The position numbers and the translations under genes were made by a program. Shown here piece after piece: positions 20,761-51,557 of a stretch of 64,000 nucleotides of DNA (its first letter is position 1; every line of letters starts with the position of its first letter). Below the pieces are notes generated by a model. It was not told the origin of the DNA, did no database searches, and was given only the letters and a program-made list of their open reading frames with translations. This DNA is from Intestinirhabdus alba (GTDB lineage Bacteria > Pseudomonadota > Gammaproteobacteria > Enterobacterales > Enterobacteriaceae). Location of the stretch: assembly GCF_009711095.1 (NCBI RefSeq), contig NZ_WMJZ01000010.1:62001-126000 (forward strand). The letters are read 5' to 3'.

Positions 20761-20864
20761 ACGCTCAGAGCAGCCCTTTCAGCCTCAGGTTTTTTGCGTA
20801 GCCTCACTGTGTTTATTTCCGCCCCGCTGCGCAGCGGCGGTCTCCTTAGGGTATATACCCGTCA

Positions 20865-20957
20865 TACTTCAGGTTGCATGTGCGTTGGCTTTATTCGGCC
20901 CGGGGGCTGTTCAAAACGCGCTGCGTTTTGCCCTGCAACTCGAATTATTTAGGGTAT
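20865..20957. repeat. 93-bp MITE-like element
   Basis: The element is bounded by imperfect terminal inverted repeats of about 24 bp: ATACCCgtcATacTTCaGgTTGCA on the left, matching the complement of TGCAactCGAattaTTtaGGGTAT on the right. Inside is the hairpin CAAAACGC-gct-GCGTTTTG. There is no open reading frame. The right 60 bases recur nearly unchanged at 49470-49532 upstream of ompC, which shows that it is a dispersed repeat. It ends 31 bp before the yfaY ATG. Confidence 0.75.
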
Positions 20958-20988
20958 AGTGTTTTGACGATAAAAGCAGGAGAACGCG

Positions 20989-42101: not shown

Positions 42102-42263
42102 TTACGCCAGTATCAGCCGGCTACTGGCTAAGTTATTCGCGCCGCCGGGGCTCCTGAACGAGCCTTTATGCCGCTGCTAAAGGTAAACGCGGCTTGAAGT
42201 ATGCCGGGTATACCGCTACCTTAATCACACTCTATTGATTGACTGAGGCGGAGCTTCGCCCCT

Positions 42264-45113
42264 TTGAAATATCTGGCTTCCTTTCGCACCACCCTGAAGG
42301 TTTCGCGCTATCTTTTCAGGGCGCTGGCGCTGCTTATCTGGCTGCTTATTGCCCTGTTTTCGGTGTTTTACATCGTCAACGCCCTGCACCAGCGGGAGTC
42401 TGAGATCCGCCAGGAGTTTAACCTCAATTCCGACCAGGCCCAGCGCTACATCCAGCGTACCTCTGACGTCATGAAAGAGCTGAAGTACATCGCTGAAAAC
42501 CGTCTGGCGGCGGATAACGGCGTGCTGTCGTCGCGGGCGCGCGACGATAAAATCGTGGTGCCCACCTTTGAGCCGCTGGTTGCCGATTCCGACTGTACCG
42601 CTATGGGCAACGCCTGGCGCGGTTCGCTGGAGTCGCTGGCGTGGTTTATGCGCTACTGGCGCGATAACTTTTCCGCCGCCTACGATCTTAACCGCGTTTT
42701 TTTAATCGGCAGCAACAGCCTCTGTATGGCCAACTTCGGCCTGCGCGACATGCCGGTCGAGCGCGACGAGGCGCAGCGGGCGCTGCATGAGCGTGTGATG
42801 AAGCACCGCAACACGCCGCAGGACGAGGCGGGAAATAACCTCTTCTGGATAGGCCAGGGCCCGCGCCCCGGCACCGGCTATTTTTATGCCCTGACGCCGG
42901 TCTATCTGGCGAATCGCCTGCAGGCTCAGCTGGGCGTTGAGCAGTCCGTGCGAATGGAAAATTTCTTTACGCCGGGCAGCCTGCCGATGGGCGTCACCCT
43001 CCTTGACGAGAACGGCCACGTGCTGATTTCGCTCACCGGCGCGGAGGGGAATATTAAAGTGGAGCCGCGCTGGATGCAGGAGCGTTCATGGTTTGGCTAC
43101 ACGGCGGGCTTTCGTGAGCTGGTGCTGAAGAAAAGCCTGCCGCCGTCGTCGCTGAGCGTCGTCTATTCCGTCCCCGTCGATCAGGTGCTGGAGCGCATTC
43201 GTATGCTGGTGCTCAACGCCATTCTGTTCAACGTGCTGGTGGGAATAGGGCTGTTTACCCTGGCGCGGCTCTATGAACGGCGGATTTTCATTCCGGCGGA
43301 GAGCGACGCCCTGCGGCTGGAGGAGCATGAGCAGTTTAACCGTAAAATCGTCGCCTCCGCGCCGGTGGGGATATGCATTCTGCGCACTCTCGACGGCGTC
43401 AATATCCTCAGCAACGAGCTGGCCCACACCTACCTCAATATGCTTAACCATGAGGACCGGCAGCGGCTGACGCAGATCGTCTGCGGCCAGCAGGTCAACT
43501 TTGTCGACGTGCTGACCAGCAACAACACCAATCTGCAGATCAGCTTCGTCCATTCGCGCTACCGCAATGAAAACGTGGCGATCTGCGTGCTGGTGGACGT
43601 CTCGGCGCGCGTCAAAATGGAGGAGTCGCTGCAGGAGATGGCTCAGGCGGCGGAGCAGGCCAGCCAGTCGAAGTCGATGTTCCTTGCCACAGTAAGCCAC
43701 GAGCTGCGTACTCCGCTGTACGGCATCATCGGCAACCTCGATCTGCTGCAGACCAAGGCGCTGCCGGAAGGGGTGGATCGCCTGGTAACGGCGATGAACA
43801 ACTCCTCCAGCCTGCTGCTAAAAATCATCAGCGATATTCTTGATTTCTCAAAAATTGAGTCCGAGCAGCTGAAAATTGAGCCGCGGGCGTTCTCGCCCCG
43901 CGAGGTGATGAGCCATATCACGGCCAACTATCTGCCGCTGGTGGTGCGTAAGCAGATCGGGCTGTACTGTTTTATCGAGCCGGAGGTGCCGGTCACCCTG
44001 AACGGCGATCCGATGCGCCTGCAGCAGGTGATCTCCAACCTGCTCAGTAACGCCATTAAGTTTACCGATATCGGCTGTATTGTTCTGCACGTCCAGTGTG
44101 ACGAAAACTACCTCAGCATTCGGGTGCGCGACACCGGCGTGGGCATTCCCGCCAAAGAGGTGGTGCGCCTGTTCGATCCCTTCTTTCAGGTGGGCACCGG
44201 CGTCCAGCGCAACTTCCAGGGGACCGGGCTGGGGCTGGCGATATGCGAGAAGCTGATCAATATGATGGACGGCGATATCGCCGTGGATTCTGAGCCGGGC
44301 ATGGGCAGCCAGTTCACGCTGCGCATTCCGCTGTACGGCGCTCAGTATCCGCAGAAAAAGGGCGTGGAGGGGCTGTCCCGGACGCGCTGCTGGCTGGCGG
44401 TGCGCAACGCCTCGCTGTGCCGCTTTGTTGAAAACAGCCTGGCGCTCAGCGGCGTTGAGGTTATCAGCTATGAGGGGCAGACCCCTGCCGCTGACGATCT
44501 GCTGATTACCGACGAGGCGCGGCTGGCGCAGCCGTGGCCGGGGCGCGCGGCGGTTATTTTCTGCCGTCGGCACATCGGTATTCCGCAGGAGAGAGCGCCG
44601 GGTGAATGGGTGCACAGCGTGGCGTCGCCCCACGAACTGCCCGCGCTGCTGGCGCATATTTACTGCATTGAGCTGGATAGCGAGGCGCTTCCGTCGGCGC
44701 TGCCCGTGGCGGATCGCATCGCCGACAGCAACGACGATATGATGATCCTGGTGGTGGACGATCACCCCATTAACCGCCGGCTGCTGGCCGATCAGCTGGG
44801 ATCGCTGGGCTATCAGTGCAAAACGGCGAACGACGGCGTCGATGCGCTCAACGTACTGAGCAAAAACCATATCGATATCATTCTGAGCGATGTCAACATG
44901 CCCAATATGGATGGCTACCGCCTGACGCAGCGGATCCGCCAGCTTGGGCTGACCCTGCCGGTGGTTGGCGTGACGGCTAACGCCCTGGCGGAAGAGAAAC
45001 AGCGCTGCCTGGAGTCAGGTATGGACAGCTGCCTCTCCAAGCCGGTGACGCTGGATGTCCTGAAACAGACGCTGGCGGTTTACGCGGAGCGGGTGAGAAA
45101 GGCGCGAGATTAA
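42264..45113 (+). CDS. rcsC: hybrid sensor histidine kinase RcsC
   Basis: Inner-membrane hybrid kinase of the Rcs envelope-stress phosphorelay; it passes phosphate through RcsD to RcsB. The 949 residues match E. coli. Order of parts: membrane segment at residues about 20-40, a periplasmic domain to about 310, a second membrane segment (ILFNVLVGIGLFTLARL), a PAS-like linker, the dimerisation domain with His479 in TVSHELRTPLYG, the ATPase domain with NLLSNAIKFTD and GTGLGLAICEK, and a receiver domain with the phosphorylatable aspartate at about 876 (IILSDVNMPNMDGY). The start is TTG, and the first residues MKYLASFRTTLK coincide with E. coli, which supports it. Confidence 0.96.
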   Translation: MKYLASFRTTLKVSRYLFRALALLIWLLIALFSVFYIVNALHQRESEIRQEFNLNSDQAQRYIQRTSDVMKELKYIAENRLAADNGVLSSRARDDKIVVPTFEPLVADSDCTAMGNAWRGSLESLAWFMRYWRDNFSAAYDLNRVFLIGSNSLCMANFGLRDMPVERDEAQRALHERVMKHRNTPQDEAGNNLFWIGQGPRPGTGYFYALTPVYLANRLQAQLGVEQSVRMENFFTPGSLPMGVTLLDENGHVLISLTGAEGNIKVEPRWMQERSWFGYTAGFRELVLKKSLPPSSLSVVYSVPVDQVLERIRMLVLNAILFNVLVGIGLFTLARLYERRIFIPAESDALRLEEHEQFNRKIVASAPVGICILRTLDGVNILSNELAHTYLNMLNHEDRQRLTQIVCGQQVNFVDVLTSNNTNLQISFVHSRYRNENVAICVLVDVSARVKMEESLQEMAQAAEQASQSKSMFLATVSHELRTPLYGIIGNLDLLQTKALPEGVDRLVTAMNNSSSLLLKIISDILDFSKIESEQLKIEPRAFSPREVMSHITANYLPLVVRKQIGLYCFIEPEVPVTLNGDPMRLQQVISNLLSNAIKFTDIGCIVLHVQCDENYLSIRVRDTGVGIPAKEVVRLFDPFFQVGTGVQRNFQGTGLGLAICEKLINMMDGDIAVDSEPGMGSQFTLRIPLYGAQYPQKKGVEGLSRTRCWLAVRNASLCRFVENSLALSGVEVISYEGQTPAADDLLITDEARLAQPWPGRAAVIFCRRHIGIPQERAPGEWVHSVASPHELPALLAHIYCIELDSEALPSALPVADRIADSNDDMMILVVDDHPINRRLLADQLGSLGYQCKTANDGVDALNVLSKNHIDIILSDVNMPNMDGYRLTQRIRQLGLTLPVVGVTANALAEEKQRCLESGMDSCLSKPVTLDVLKQTLAVYAERVRKARD

Positions 45114-46054: not shown

Positions 46055-48724
46055 CTACAGCAAGCTTTTGACGTAAGCGTCAATGTCGCTGATATATTTC
46101 TCTATACCTGGAGCATCTTTTTCATGAATCAGATGTTCCAGCGTTTCACATAACTGCTTGCCGGGTACCAGATTTAGCATGGCAAACACGCCCTTCAGGC
46201 GGTGAGCCGTTTGGGCCAGCGCAGCGAAATCGCTGGTTGCCGCCTCAGTATACAACCTCTTAACATCATCCGGTACTGTGTCTACAAACAGTGCATAATA
46301 GCCGCTGGCATGAAGTTCGGCATTTTCATTTCCACCGGGGGATAGATCAGATATCGCCTCCTGGGCCAGCTGCTCCTCAATAAGCGCCAGTATCGCCTGC
46401 TGCATTGCGTTACTCATATTAAAGTTAACGCACAGCTGACCTGGCCCTATTTTTCGTACCCCAGGCTCATCATCGCTTAAAAGCAGGCCAGAGGCAGTAA
46501 GATTAGACGGATTATCCGTTAAAAAAAGATCATATTCTTGATTTAAAAATCTTTCGTCCGGGGTAAGGCAGGTAGCTCCCCAGTGTTCCAGCTGTCGCCG
46601 CACGATATGACGAATCTCGCTGGAGGTGACGTCAACCATCACGCTGACATCATCCAGCAGCCGCTCTTCCGTTTCCCTGTGCTGGCCGTGCGGTGCCATT
46701 TTAACATGTACGGTATAGCGTGTGCCAAGCGTATCCCGCGCTTTAATACTCAGATGGCCGCCCAGCTTGCGCGCCAGCTGGTCGCACAGCCAGAAGGTCA
46801 GCGGGTTGGCTTTACCGTAGCGGTCGCCCTGGGTCTCGTTAATATAGGGGAAGTGCAGATTGTCGATCTCGCTCAGGGTCACCCCTTCGCCGGTATCAAG
46901 GATGCGAAAGGTCAGGCGATCCGGCGATGATTCATCCTGGTCGACCTCAAGGGTGATTTTGCCAATCTGCGTTGTGGTAACGGCATACTGGATCAGCAGT
47001 AGCAGGATTCGCCGCAGAGCGCTGCGATCGCCGTGGCGCTCGTCGTTGGCGCTCAGATGATTATTGATGAGCAACTGCAGGCCTTTGCGGCGGATGGTTG
47101 GCAGCACCTCCGGCACCACGTCATCAATCAGCGCCTGCACGGAGAAAAGATCGGTGTCGCTTTTCCAGGTGTCGTTTTCCAGCACGTTGGCCAGCTGGAT
47201 TTCCTCAATAATGCGCACCAGCAGCTCGGCCTGGCTCACCAGCTTTTGCGCCTCCGGGCCGCTTAACGCCGCAGCGCTCGCCGCCAGCTCGTTCACCGGA
47301 TCCCTGAGGGCGCTGCCGATGTTCTGCATAAAGAGGGCGCGGCCGTGCTGATTTTTTTCATACAGGCGCTGGGCCTGCTTCAGCTTCTTATTCACCAGCA
47401 CTTCGCGGTCCTGATCGCGAATAATAAAGATTTGCGTGCGCGACGCCGTCTGGCTGCGGAACAGGCGGATCTCGTACAGCTCGTTATTGATGGTAGCCTG
47501 AATGACCCCCTGATGCTGCTCCGCCATGCTGGTGATATTTTGCAGATTCAGGTGCGGCAGCAGGTGATCGGCGATCTTATTGCTGATGATCGTGCGGTTG
47601 GCCTCCTGGTCGTGCACCAGCAGCCCCAGCGGCAGCAGGGAGACGATCTCCTCGTTGATGGCCCGCAGCACTCTCAGCTCGTTGGTGGCGGCGCTGCTGG
47701 TGGCCACTTCGGTTGAGCGGCCGGGCTGATGGCGAAAGGTGGAGTAGCCGAACAGGGCCAGCGCCAGCAGGCCGATATTCAGCAGCAGCGGCAGCAGAAT
47801 GTTTTGCAGCGTATCGAGCAGCAGCGTGCCGAAGGGCACCTGCCAGATCAGCCGCATACCGGTGGTGTTCAGCGCCGATGATATTTCGATTTTCGAGTCA
47901 TTAAAGCTAATGCTGACGCTGTCCGTGGTCTCTTTGTCATTGCTGCGCGCGGCGGCAGGCGCGGTTTCAGGCTCAAGGCGGAAGCTGTCCAGCGCCATTC
48001 CAGGCGGGATCAGATCGTTGATCGGCAGATCGAAAGCCACGACGGTGGCCAGATGTCCCGGCTGGTTAAAGGTGGTGCGCAGCGTGAAATAGTGACCGTT
48101 CTGCCACGCCAGGCGGCGCAGCGAAGAGAAGCTTTCGCGCTCGTCCAGCGCGTTGGCCTGCTGCAGCATTTCCGCCCGCCGCGAGTCGACGATGTTGCCG
48201 ATAGCGGACTCTTTAAACCCGGAGGCGAGATCCTTTAGCGGCAGCGTGGAGACCAGAATCAGGCTGTTGTCCTGGCCGTTCAGATAATACATTGACCAGG
48301 GTACGGATTCTGCGCCCCACAGCGTATCAAGATAGGTTGAAATGCGCTGGGTCATCTCCAGGGTAGAGCCGTCGTGAGAGCCGAAAATAAGCGCTTCGGT
48401 TTTTCGCCTGGGCTTTTCCAGATAATAGACGTCCTGCTTCAGGCGCGTCTCCTGCAGGCCTTCGCCGTTGGAGGGGGTCGTGGTGGCGGCGATATTGTCA
48501 TACATTTGCCAGGTGACGTAGCGCCAGGCATCCACGCGCTTGTGGATCGCATGGGTAATGTCGACGACCTGATAGCTTTTATCCTTCAGCCAGGCGTTGA
48601 CCGCGCTTTGCACCATCACGCCCATAGTGACCAGCAACACGATGATGAGCAGCAAAAAGAAACGGGTAATGCTTCCCGGCAGGAGGGAAAATCGGGTGGA
48701 CGCCGCTGTATCAGACTGACTCAT
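46055..48724 (-). CDS. rcsD: phosphotransfer intermediate RcsD
   Basis: Inner-membrane histidine phosphotransferase that relays phosphate between RcsC and RcsB. The ATG at 48724 gives 889 residues (E. coli 890) and the conserved start MSQSDTAASTRFSLLPGSITRFF; the upstream 33 codons of open frame are not conserved. Membrane segments are at about 20-40 and 305-325, flanking a periplasmic domain. The kinase-like domain is degenerate and lacks the catalytic histidine. The C-terminal HPt domain carries His841 in QTAHRLKGVFAMLNL. Expressed with rcsB. Confidence 0.96.
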   Translation of the reverse strand: MSQSDTAASTRFSLLPGSITRFFLLLIIVLLVTMGVMVQSAVNAWLKDKSYQVVDITHAIHKRVDAWRYVTWQMYDNIAATTTPSNGEGLQETRLKQDVYYLEKPRRKTEALIFGSHDGSTLEMTQRISTYLDTLWGAESVPWSMYYLNGQDNSLILVSTLPLKDLASGFKESAIGNIVDSRRAEMLQQANALDERESFSSLRRLAWQNGHYFTLRTTFNQPGHLATVVAFDLPINDLIPPGMALDSFRLEPETAPAAARSNDKETTDSVSISFNDSKIEISSALNTTGMRLIWQVPFGTLLLDTLQNILLPLLLNIGLLALALFGYSTFRHQPGRSTEVATSSAATNELRVLRAINEEIVSLLPLGLLVHDQEANRTIISNKIADHLLPHLNLQNITSMAEQHQGVIQATINNELYEIRLFRSQTASRTQIFIIRDQDREVLVNKKLKQAQRLYEKNQHGRALFMQNIGSALRDPVNELAASAAALSGPEAQKLVSQAELLVRIIEEIQLANVLENDTWKSDTDLFSVQALIDDVVPEVLPTIRRKGLQLLINNHLSANDERHGDRSALRRILLLLIQYAVTTTQIGKITLEVDQDESSPDRLTFRILDTGEGVTLSEIDNLHFPYINETQGDRYGKANPLTFWLCDQLARKLGGHLSIKARDTLGTRYTVHVKMAPHGQHRETEERLLDDVSVMVDVTSSEIRHIVRRQLEHWGATCLTPDERFLNQEYDLFLTDNPSNLTASGLLLSDDEPGVRKIGPGQLCVNFNMSNAMQQAILALIEEQLAQEAISDLSPGGNENAELHASGYYALFVDTVPDDVKRLYTEAATSDFAALAQTAHRLKGVFAMLNLVPGKQLCETLEHLIHEKDAPGIEKYISDIDAYVKSLL

Positions 48725-49029
48725 TCGTGGTGATGACCTGTGAAAACAACGCAAAAGGTGAAAAGGCAGTATAAAGGGTACGGCGTGAATTTCCATACTC
48801 TCGCTGACGGGGAAAGGGTGCATTTTTCCGAAAAGAGAGCCGCCGCCGCTGAGCGGGCTAATGCAGGCATATTATTTGCCTTATGCGCCACCCGCGGCCG
48901 CGTAGCCCGAAAACGGCACGGCAGGGACGAGCAGGTTATTCGCTGTTCCGACACAAGGAAGTGCTAATAATTGATTATTGTGATTATTTTAATGTTTGGC
49001 TATTGCGCCAGAGAGCGGCGACAGGGGCC
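48725..49029. other. intergenic region between rcsD and micF
   Basis: About 305 bp without a supportable gene. It must hold the rcsD promoter on the minus strand. Short open frames exist on both strands but have no ribosome-binding sites or family features. AT-rich sequence at about 48960-49010 (TAATAATTGATTATTGTGATTATTTTAA) is a likely promoter or protein-binding site. Confidence 0.4.
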
Positions 49030-49124
49030 AAAAAAAAAACCGAATGTGCGGCATCCGGTTATCAAGGGGGAAATGACCATTCAGTAAGGAATGACGGTAA
49101 CAAATAAAAATTAATGATGATAGC
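49030..49124 (-). ncRNA. micF: antisense regulatory RNA MicF
   Basis: Small RNA that pairs with the ompF leader and represses its translation with Hfq. On the minus strand the 5' end GCTATCATCATTAATTTTT (49124 backwards) is nearly identical to E. coli micF through the ompF-pairing region TTACCGTCATTC. The 3' end is the terminator hairpin AACCGGATGCC-gcac-ATTCGG followed by TTTTTTTTT (49039-49029). It is divergent from ompC, as in E. coli. The RNA looks intact although its neighbour ompC is broken. Confidence 0.93.
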
Positions 49125-49264
49125 GACGATATTGTAAGGGGGAGTGGCGCTGTTGTTTTGGCATTCAGTGCGCTAAAAAAACGTTTTGCAGCTTATTGTT
49201 TTAATATATTATTTTCCCGTTTTACCCGAAAAGCCTCTCGTTAATCTCCGGGAACTTATTGTAG

Positions 49265-49535
49265 TCATTGACCGGGGACGCGGCGTTCAAATCTGCTCCC
49301 GACAGATTTGTCACTCACCCCGGTCACAGTGTTTGCTATGTTCCCGGGGATAAATGAGGGACATCCCTGTCCCTCACCGAAGGCGACCTTCGGTCGGGCA
49401 AATTCGTTCCTGACGGATTTGTTGCACGTTTGCCGCATGATTCGGCCTGAGGGCCTCACCCCTTCGGGGCCAGCCCGGGGGCTGTTCAAAACGCACTGCG
49501 TTTTGTCATGCAACTCGAATTATTTGGGGTATATA
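49265..49535. repeat. array of seven hairpins between micF and the ompC promoter
   Basis: An insertion-like stretch made almost entirely of consecutive stem-loops: ACCGGGG/CCCCGGT (49271-49324) enclosing CAAATCTG-7-CAGATTTG (49288-49310); TGAGGGACA-4-TGTCCCTCA (49355-49376); ACCGAAGG-3-CCTTCGGT (49376-49394); CAAATTCG-7-CGGATTTG (49399-49421); CCCC-ttc-GGGG (49459-49469); CAGCCC-gg-GGGCTG (49471-49484); and CAAAACG-5-CGTTTTG (49487-49505). The two CAAAT hairpins are variants of one unit, with loops CTCCCGA and TTCCTGA. The right end, from 49470 to 49532, is nearly identical to the right end of the MITE-like element at 20865-20957. Confidence 0.7.
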
Positions 49536-49572
49536 TATATTTCGCAATACTTTTAAAAAGTGCCCTGTCACT

Positions 49573-49616
49573 TATATTCTGAAACACCTGAATTGCGCTA
49601 TGAAACATCTTTAACC
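49573..49616 (+). promoter_or_regulatory. OmpR-binding region of ompC
   Basis: TTCTGAAACACCTG and, two helical turns on, TATGAAACATCTTT reproduce the spaced GAAACAT motifs of the E. coli ompC OmpR sites. It is followed by the expected AT-rich promoter region and by a leader containing ATGCAGTGGCATAAAAA, which is also conserved in E. coli. The upstream control region therefore looks functional although the gene behind it is not. Confidence 0.8.
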
Positions 49617-49748
49617 GTCTGGTATCACATTCACATTAGATTAATCCAGGGTTTTACGGAAAATGAAACGGCCGCCTGATTAATAAAGGAGTAATCAGGA
49701 TGCAGTGGCATAAAAAGTAAATAAAGGCAAAAGCTAAGGGTTAATAAC

Positions 49749-50316
49749 GTGAAAATTAATGCACTCTCTCTTCTGATTCCCGCGCTGCTGGCGCAGCAAA
49801 TGCGGCTGAGATTTATAATAAAGACGAAAATAAATTAGATCTGTTTGGTAAAGTCGACGGCCTGCACTATTTCTCTGACGATAAAAGCGCCGATGGCGAT
49901 CGAACCTACGTTCGCTTTGGCTTCAGGGGCGAAACCCAGGTCAGCGATCTTATCACCGGCTACGGCCAGTGGGAGTATCAGATCCAGGAGAACGACGCTG
50001 AATCCACCGACAACGCCTGGACCCGCGTGGCCTTTGCCGGGGTGAAGTTTGGCGATGCCGGCTCTTTTGACTACGGGCGCAACTACGGCGTGGTGTATGA
50101 CGTCACCTGCAGTCAAGGGGTAAAGATCTGGAACGCGGCTATGGCGATGAAGATATCCTGAAATACGTGGACGTCGGCGCGACCTGGTACTTCAACAAAA
50201 ATATGTCCACCTGGGTGGATTACAAAATCAACCCGCTGGACGACAACCGCTTCACCCGCGATGCGGGCATTAGCACTGACAATATCGTCGCGCCGGGGCT
50301 GGTTTACCCGTTCTGA
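49749..50316 (+). pseudogene. ompC: ompC porin, disrupted remnant
   Basis: Remains of the major outer-membrane porin. The frame opens at GTG (49749; E. coli has ATG) with the signal sequence [15 protein letters not shown] deletion of about 7 bases relative to E. coli then shifts the frame just before [30 protein letters not shown] (in frame from 49793). Mature sequence continues to [12 protein letters not shown] (about 50107), where it jumps, in another frame, to [65 protein letters not shown] and a stop at 50316. About 180 codons of the roughly 365 expected are missing, including loop L3 and most strands. No functional porin can be made. The terminal phenylalanine needed for assembly is still there, so decay is probably recent. 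Confidence 0.9.
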
Positions 50317-50340
50317 CGGGCGTTGGCCGCTGAGCGTCAA

Positions 50341-50396
50341 AGAGAGGATATTCCCCCTCTCTGTCAGCAAACTGAAAGGCCAGTCGGGCCTTTTTT
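50341..50396 (+). terminator. ompC terminator
   Basis: AGAGAGG...CCTCTCT (50341-50361) followed by AAAGGCC-agtc-GGGCCTTTTTT (50375-50396). The second is a good Rho-independent terminator and remains intact after the pseudogene. Confidence 0.85.
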
Positions 50397-50501
50397 AACG
50401 CACTTTTACGACGCACGGACGGTCGCTTTTGGTGTAGTCTGTGTCGCAAAATTTCTCAGGGGAGGGCGCGTTGCTCATCGCCCGCAGGAGGACAATCAGG
50501 T

Positions 50502-51557
50502 ATGGAGATAAACGTTGCCCGGGCCGTCGTGCTGGCCGCCGCGCTTTTTTTCACCGGCTGCGAAGAGGCTCCGACACCCGCTGACGCCACGCCGCCCGTC
50601 GTCATGGTGCTGCAGGGCAAGACGATGGGCACCGTCTGGCGGGTCAGCGCCGTCGGCGTGGACCCGCGGCGCGGTGCGGCGTTAAAAGAGCGAATACAGG
50701 CGCAGTTGGACGCCGACGATCGGCTGCTGTCGACCTATAAAAACGACTCCGCGCTGATGCGTTTTAACCACTCCGGCAGCCTGTCGCCCTGGCCGGTCAG
50801 CGAAGCGATGGCGGATATCGTCACTACCGCCCTGCGCATTGGTGCCCGCACCGACGGCGCGATGGATATTACCGTCGGGCCGCTGGTAAACCTGTGGGGC
50901 TTTGGCCCGCAGCAGCAGCCGGTAAATACGCCCACCCCGGCGCAAATCGAGGCGGCAAAGGCCCGGAGCGGGCTGCAGCATCTGACGGTCATCAATCAGG
51001 CGCGACGCCAGTATCTGCAAAAGGATATTCCCGATCTGTACGTCGATCTCTCCACCGTTGGCGAAGGCTATGCGGCGGATCGCCTGGCGCGTCTGATGGA
51101 GCAGGAGGGCATCGTTCGCTATCTGGTTTCCGTCGGCGGCGCGCTGAGCGGCCGGGGCATGAACGGTGAGGAGCGACCCTGGCGGGTGGCGATTCAGAAG
51201 CCCACCGACCGGGAAAACGCGGTGCAGGCGATAGTCGATATTAACGGCCACGGCATCAGCACCTCCGGCAGCTACCGGAACTATTACGAGCTGGACGGCC
51301 GACGCCTCTCGCACATTATCGATCCGCAGACCGGCAGGCCCATCGAACACAATCTGGTTTCGGTAACGGTTATCGCGCCAACGGCGCTGGAGGCGGACGG
51401 CTGGGACACCGGCCTGATGGTGCTCGGCGCGGAAAAAGCCAAAGAGGTGGCGCGTCGGGAAGGGCTGGCGGTCTATCTGATCGTCAAAGAGGGCGAGGGC
51501 TTTAAAACCTGGATGTCGCCGCAGTTCCACAGTTTTCTTATCAGCAATAAAAATTAA
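50502..51557 (+). CDS. apbE: FAD:protein FMN transferase ApbE (lipoprotein)
   Basis: Periplasmic, magnesium-dependent flavin transferase that attaches FMN covalently to target proteins such as Rnf/Nqr subunits. It has 351 residues with a lipoprotein signal, LAAALFFTGC, and the acylated cysteine at residue 20. Family motifs are GKTMGTVWRV (residues about 40-49), TDGAMDITVGPLVNLWGFG, DLSTVGEGYAADRLARLMEQ, GGALSGRG, STSGSYRNYYELDGRRLSHIIDPQTGRPIEHNLVSVTVIA and ALEADGWDTGLMVLG, the last holding metal-binding aspartate residues. AGGAGGA precedes the ATG. Order ompC-apbE-ada is as in E. coli. Confidence 0.95.
   Translation: MEINVARAVVLAAALFFTGCEEAPTPADATPPVVMVLQGKTMGTVWRVSAVGVDPRRGAALKERIQAQLDADDRLLSTYKNDSALMRFNHSGSLSPWPVSEAMADIVTTALRIGARTDGAMDITVGPLVNLWGFGPQQQPVNTPTPAQIEAAKARSGLQHLTVINQARRQYLQKDIPDLYVDLSTVGEGYAADRLARLMEQEGIVRYLVSVGGALSGRGMNGEERPWRVAIQKPTDRENAVQAIVDINGHGISTSGSYRNYYELDGRRLSHIIDPQTGRPIEHNLVSVTVIAPTALEADGWDTGLMVLGAEKAKEVARREGLAVYLIVKEGEGFKTWMSPQFHSFLISNKN

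Follow-up and report, generated by a model that had tools for sequence, protein, structure and literature searches.

ERIC, also called IRU or RU-1, is listed in ISFinder as MITEEc1 (PMC6267812), and the 127-nt ERIC/RU-1 sequence of E. coli is printed in PMC2759123. An ERIC-related MITE, MITEPlu5 of Photorhabdus, has a TA target, occurs in high copy number and resembles at its ends the CCC-type IS630 elements ISPlu3, 8 and 19; 467 of its 552 complete copies are 123 bp long, and modules go unmentioned in its description in PMC6267812. Small TA-ended MITEs are described from other hosts as well (PMC2229807), namely RUP of the pneumococcus, for which use of an IS630 transposase has been proposed, and Correia/NEMIS, where a longer variant of NEMIS contains an internal sequence of 50 bp; their likeness to ERIC is taken here by description only. 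IS630 elements of the ISEc40 family, which differ from ERIC in being about 1.1 kb long and in carrying a transposase gene, have the terminal sequence TATACC-N9-T(C/G)(A/G)AG(A/T)TGC with the same spacing as the ERIC ends. According to PMC2229807, experimental support for transposases was lacking as of 2007, and the evidence on a mobiliser of the ERIC-related element given in PMC6267812 is end similarity only.

We analyzed a 64,000-nt stretch of Intestinirhabdus alba DNA (hereafter designated the window, to which coordinates refer unless a locus is named), in which a sequence-only reading had picked out a hairpin-rich block at 49265–49535. This block is very probably an enlarged ERIC in truncated form, that is, a non-autonomous, TA-ended MITE, with an origin as proposed in the Discussion. 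The elements of this genome share with ERIC/IRU/RU-1 the TATACCC ends, the core, the TA ends and strong folding, together with intergenic placing at this locus. They differ from it in that 105 of the 123 classed copies, a non-random sample, hold one to three added modules of about 70 bp, in 31 cases in place of the core, and in that the window copy is without one end.

Results

Structure of the hairpin block

The main element, delimited by own-genome matches, lies on the reverse strand at 49279–49533, and all of its parts read on that strand. Inward from the A end at 49533, it comprises the ERIC A terminal repeat (49514–49533; TATACCCCAAATAATTCGAG), module M1 with four hairpins (49435–49507) and module M2 with three (49353–49423), both bounded by eye, the ERIC core palindrome (49312–49352), placed by alignment with the printed E. 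coli ERIC and with the family, and a partial module M3 (49279–49311) that retains its first hairpin only. Homology to full copies stops at 49279, inside M3, where the element is truncated. Thus, the window copy is 255 bp long and not the ERIC/IRU unit of about 127 bp, and of the terminal repeats TATACCC...GGGTATA it has the A end, the other (B) end being lost. It aligns with the printed ERIC both at the core and near the A end; larger forms with ERIC ends and core are an ERIC variant, not canonical ERIC. At 49240–49277, on the forward strand, lies a decayed ERIC core in the opposite orientation, in which 27 of 38 letters equal the printed core and which has reverse-strand matches to the core region of other ERIC copies.

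The stem-loops that the sequence-only reading had located at 49265–49535 are indeed there, with their arms checked. M1 contains GGCC/GGCC (49444–49455), CCCC/GGGG (49459–49469), CAGCC/GGCTG (49471–49484) and CAAAACGCA/TGCGTTTTG (49487–49505); M2 contains TGAGGGACA/TGTCCCTCA (49355–49376), ACCGAAGG/CCTTCGGT (49376–49394) and, as its first hairpin, CAAATTCG/CGGATTTG with one U-G pair (49399–49421); and the first hairpin of M3 is CAAATCTG/CAGATTTG (49288–49310). Two hairpins (CAAAT hairpins) had been regarded as variants of one unit, which was borne out, one being the first hairpin of M3 and the other that of M2; the G-U pair is peculiar to the window copy, all 28 of the aligned family copies having U-A at this position. 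The outermost stem, GACCGGGG/CCCCGGTC, pairs two different pieces, the inverted decayed core (49240–49277) and the main element (49279–49533), by way of an inverted repeat of 41 nt that is 71% complementary. Compared with 200 dinucleotide shuffles per strand, 49265–49535 folded at −111.5 kcal/mol on the forward strand (z −3.91) and at −111.8 kcal/mol on the reverse strand (z −4.45), with 0 of 200 shuffles as good in either case. The hairpins are real and non-random.

Elsewhere in the window, a second ERIC of 105 bp (20854–20958) has an M1-type hairpin and is without the ERIC core, and an isolated ERIC B end (42193–42212) lies just upstream of a sensor-kinase gene starting near 42264.

ERIC copies in the genome

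A 401-bp query had at least 44 matches in the draft genome (174 contigs, 4.83 Mb), the best 40 of 220 first-look candidates having been scored. Full copies extend past the window element and end in TATACCCTAAATAATTCGAGTTGCAGG (A) and TATACCCGTCATACTTCAAGTTGCATG (B). The A end occurs at 183 places (92+91, with at most three mismatches; reversed control, 1+0) and the B end at 131 (67+64; control, 0). The outcome that would have spoken against the sequence-only reading, a single-copy sequence in all relatives with no conserved stems, did not occur. A third end pattern was found 166 times, more often than in any other of the 149 family genomes (the next two have 164 and 120); 69 of the 149 have it at least once. 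On these counts, ERIC is widespread across the family and abundant in the present genome. Four other family genomes rich in ERIC ends (G030, G068, G094 and G104, with 164, 120, 95 and 91) gave no match to a strict M1 pattern.

From 131 fetched stretches, 125 elements with both ends were recovered, forming a non-random sample, of which 39 were chosen for their likeness to the window copy and 86 by end patterns among the matches listed. Compared over the first 111 letters of the E. coli RU-1/ERIC sequence given in PMC2759123, fourteen elements of 126–127 bp were 78–86% identical to it, which makes their core and ends homologous to published ERIC. TA stands at both start and end of 117 of the 125 elements, which were picked by ends with up to five mismatches, so that TA ends partly shaped the choice. 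These ends, used also for the picking, would be consistent with a TA duplication on ERIC insertion.

Modules and size classes

After two elements had been dropped for poor ends, 123 were classed. The full form M1+M2+core+M3 accounts for 32, of which 29 come from the 39 similarity-picked elements, a bias of the sample. M1 only, with the module in place of the core, is found in 31, core only (126–127 bp) in 14, M1+core+M3 in 13, core+M3 in 12, M1+M2+core in six, M2+core+M3 in four, neither module nor core in four, M1+core in two, M3 only in two, and M1+M3, M1+M2 and M1+M2+M3 in one each. The modules are about 70–82 bp long, have the common layout ACAAAn...nTTTGAAC-GCC..GGC and sit at fixed sites around the ERIC core. 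Among the consensus strings M1, M2, M3a and M3b, each of the six pairs scored higher than all 1,000 shuffles (z 4.2–9.4).

It is hardly credible that the block is a plain ERIC of 127 bp into which unrelated hairpins were inserted by chance: canonical ERICs of 126–127 bp do exist here (14 of the 123 classed), but the mutual homology of the modules, and their recurrence at the same sites in E. coli, already contradict this explanation. Within the modular family, 28 core-less, M1-headed elements measure 120–145 bp, and 24 of them end with an M3a junction, two with M3b and two with M1, so that 26 are M1/M3 fusions; moreover, an M2 tail is kept behind the M1 head in 11 of 13 M1+core+M3 elements. 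These hybrid junctions suggest that the short forms are mostly module hybrids and point to deletion between homologous palindromic modules of the full-length form, the change presumably having run from the full-length form to the short ones.

Our literature search, in which subscription papers were incompletely covered, found no published account of the modules of about 70 bp, and we do not claim them to be unpublished. Cromie, Collins and Leach reportedly dealt in 1997 with interruptions in enterobacterial repeats that keep a well-folded RNA structure, and the title of that paper suggests that part of the module story is already known.

Modular ERICs in E. coli and the family

In E. coli, M1 was found at iscX-pepB, M2 at panC, M3 at acpH-queA, M2+M3 next to gyrA in SMS-3-5, and M1+M2+M3 next to ybhM in RM9088, with the modules at the same sites as in the own-genome copies. 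The block has a match in 941 of 5426 E. coli genomes, of which seven cover at least 80% of it; the matches fall at a median of one place per genome and at two at most, in contrast to the bloom in the present genome. A count of 5146 of 5426, obtained with a wide-flank query, was dropped because most of its matches must stem from the flanks. Since E. coli has the same modules singly or together, the own-genome expansion is a bloom, within one lineage, of something already known in kind, in which a more widely scattered form, the modular ERIC, has been multiplied. The scattered form would be older than the bloom. The strict M1 pattern has a match in eight of the 149 family genomes, 61+62 times in the present one and at most three times in any other. 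This M1 variant is thus rare elsewhere among these genomes as judged by the strict pattern, which misses diverged modules; for example, the E. coli M1 of locus L258 is by eye three mismatches off.

Conserved pairing

Pairing was analyzed in an alignment of 27 own-genome copies of 329–341 bp and one E. coli copy, which left out one of the 28 own copies in this size range (containing an N) and the truncated window copy. RNAalifold predicted 100 pairs, and 97.9% of 2799 cells in the alignment were paired in this structure, as against at most 39.3% for slid structures. Changes on both sides of the stem were seen in 16 of the 100 pairs versus a shuffled mean of 8.6 (0/500), a count that may be raised by relatedness among the copies. 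These family-wide changes lend support to the earlier suggestion of selection for, or generation by, structure.

Which of the two processes acted on the ERICs is a matter of graded judgment. Hairpin-templated mutation (quasipalindrome correction), and not selection for RNA or DNA structure, might lie behind the two-sided changes; we give this explanation somewhat less than an even chance. Single stem positions flip between complementary states, as in one M3 stem pair that is U-A in 15, G-C in six and A-U in five copies, which speaks for such correction, but sequence alone does not separate it from selection. Because the two-sided changes would fit either process alike, we claim no RNA function.

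The micF-ompC site

As first read, the block lies between micF and OmpR-like boxes. The micF antisense RNA gene is at 49032–49125 on the reverse strand (RF00033, E 2e-9, 64.4 bits, below the gathering score of 79). Alignment with relatives places the OmpR-box-like sequence at about 49575–49650 and, together with Porin_1 pieces 1–107 and 270–337 of 337, an ompC pseudogene at 49750–50315 on the forward strand. The ompC gene has suffered a 7-nt deletion in its signal-peptide region and a large internal loss; three intact porin genes are present elsewhere in the genome. The element had no BLAST match in the stretches fetched from 80 relatives. In 75 relatives (micF was not found in the fetched stretch of the other five), the gap between micF and the ompC promoter region was in every case shorter than in the window, by 286–296 bp (median 292). 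The added length of about 292 bp fits the whole of 49240–49533 (294 bp) as the insert, and the inverted core is therefore counted as part of it.

The block had been thought to be a composite MITE, a structured RNA or a transcription barrier; the first of these stood, in the form of a multi-copy ERIC with modules. The other two are unsupported, the insert being absent from 75 of 75 relatives with micF in the fetched stretch and ompC being broken. A regulatory RNA or barrier selected at this very locus would find favor in the strong folding on both strands and in its location between two genes, where the OmpR-like boxes have been moved about 292 bp further from micF (286–296 against the 75 relatives). 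It is nevertheless very improbable, as well over a hundred further places in the genome have related sequence, the site is empty in all 75 relatives, the copy is truncated and ompC is a pseudogene. In the simplest reading, the window copy is probably a passenger that is tolerated beside the dead ompC, and the locus warns against taking ERIC hairpins for a regulator of micF or ompC.

No Rfam family reached the gathering level in 47500–51500, the window copy scoring 38.6 bits against RF02902 (gathering, 39.8). This sub-threshold match to Aggregatibacter sRNA 22 (RF02902) was rejected as a sign of an sRNA gene and is read as marking the module, since the same family reaches the gathering level at seven of the 18 repeat loci searched in this genome and at one of the two ERIC loci of E. 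coli. In these eight of 20 loci, RF02902 (AaHKsRNA22) lies on the ERIC M1 (for example, L258 812–884 and L212 547–619), and the family may represent a module of a mobile repeat.

A record titled Chryseobacterium sp. (L077) carries an enterobacterial micF-ompC-apbE region with an apbE product 74% to the query, and is probably a mislabelled or contaminated assembly.

ERIC ends and a candidate mobiliser

Pfam DDE_3 detected two IS630 remnants in the genome, both near ERICs. The 174-contig draft contains these two remnants only and no intact IS630 transposase of the ISEc40 type, and present mobility is therefore unproven. An ERIC ends inside the reading frame of the remnant on contig C120, and that on C98 is an internally deleted element (locus L223, about 1366–1774) about 100 bp from an ERIC. 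Relatives of a 75-residue piece turned up in 26 of 392 family genomes, among them the present one, and in 289 of 72,556 plasmid records; the best plasmid match is annotated as ISEc40 family.

Complete IS elements, found in loci L256 and L257 at 643–1743, end in TATACCCGTGATCATTGAAGATGCTTG and TATACCCAATAAACCTCAAGATGC. Over five IS copies, ERIC B agrees with the IS left end in 19–21 of 27 letters and ERIC A with the right end in 19–20 of 27 (shuffle p 5e-5 to 2e-3). Crossed pairs were lower on average but likewise above chance (17–20 of 27; p 5e-5 to 0.03), so that the end-to-end match is, in terms of aligned letters, a preference and not exclusive. The ERIC ends thus resemble those of an autonomous ISEc40-type IS630 element. 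Because PMC6267812 already reports the resemblance of MITEPlu5 to IS630 ends, the ERIC-IS630 link is not new here; the ISEc40-type match for the ERICs of this genome is the added piece.

In L223 1264–1774 and L224 1501–1620, each of the two remnants has an ERIC copy no more than about 100 bp away. The 105 bp or so between ERIC and remnant at L223 1264–1370 have IS-like ends on both sides and resemble a miniature IS630 derivative. Direct abutment of an ERIC on the C98 remnant was rejected, as comparison with an intact element puts the left end of the remnant about 100 bp further on.

Discussion

An ERIC end and core, three homologous modules, copies of discrete size, conserved pairing and absence from relatives are directly supported for the block at 49265–49535. 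As for its origin, an IS630-type transposase, of the ISEc40/'CCC' kind, would have recognized ERIC ends in trans, and modules would have multiplied inside ERIC. Deletion between homologous palindromic modules during replication would then give rise to the short and hybrid forms, and the hairpins would be kept either because selection acts on how the mobile DNA or its transcript folds or because hairpins template their own correction. In the micF-ompC interval, where the main element and the inverted core piece together fit the added 292 bp or so, the ERIC presumably underwent rearrangement, by foldback or by fusion with an older copy, and lost its B end.

The enlarged, modular, high-copy ERIC is uncommon but is no new kind of system. 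ERIC is widely used for strain typing, and what moves it is treated as unsettled in PMC2229807 and PMC6267812; the ISEc40-type match names a transposase group to assay. With over a hundred copies of discrete size and interpretable hybrids, module exchange, palindrome deletion and the upkeep of structure may be tested within one genome. More speculatively, and on balance rather unlikely, the module of about 70 bp may itself be a spreading unit, which entered ERIC at three set sites, perhaps via single-stranded hairpin intermediates, and through recombination among modules and cores produced a combinatorial MITE family, with structured parts that can be exchanged, driven in trans by ISEc40-type IS630 transposases. 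If this is true, ERIC would be a modular chassis and not a fixed 127-bp repeat.
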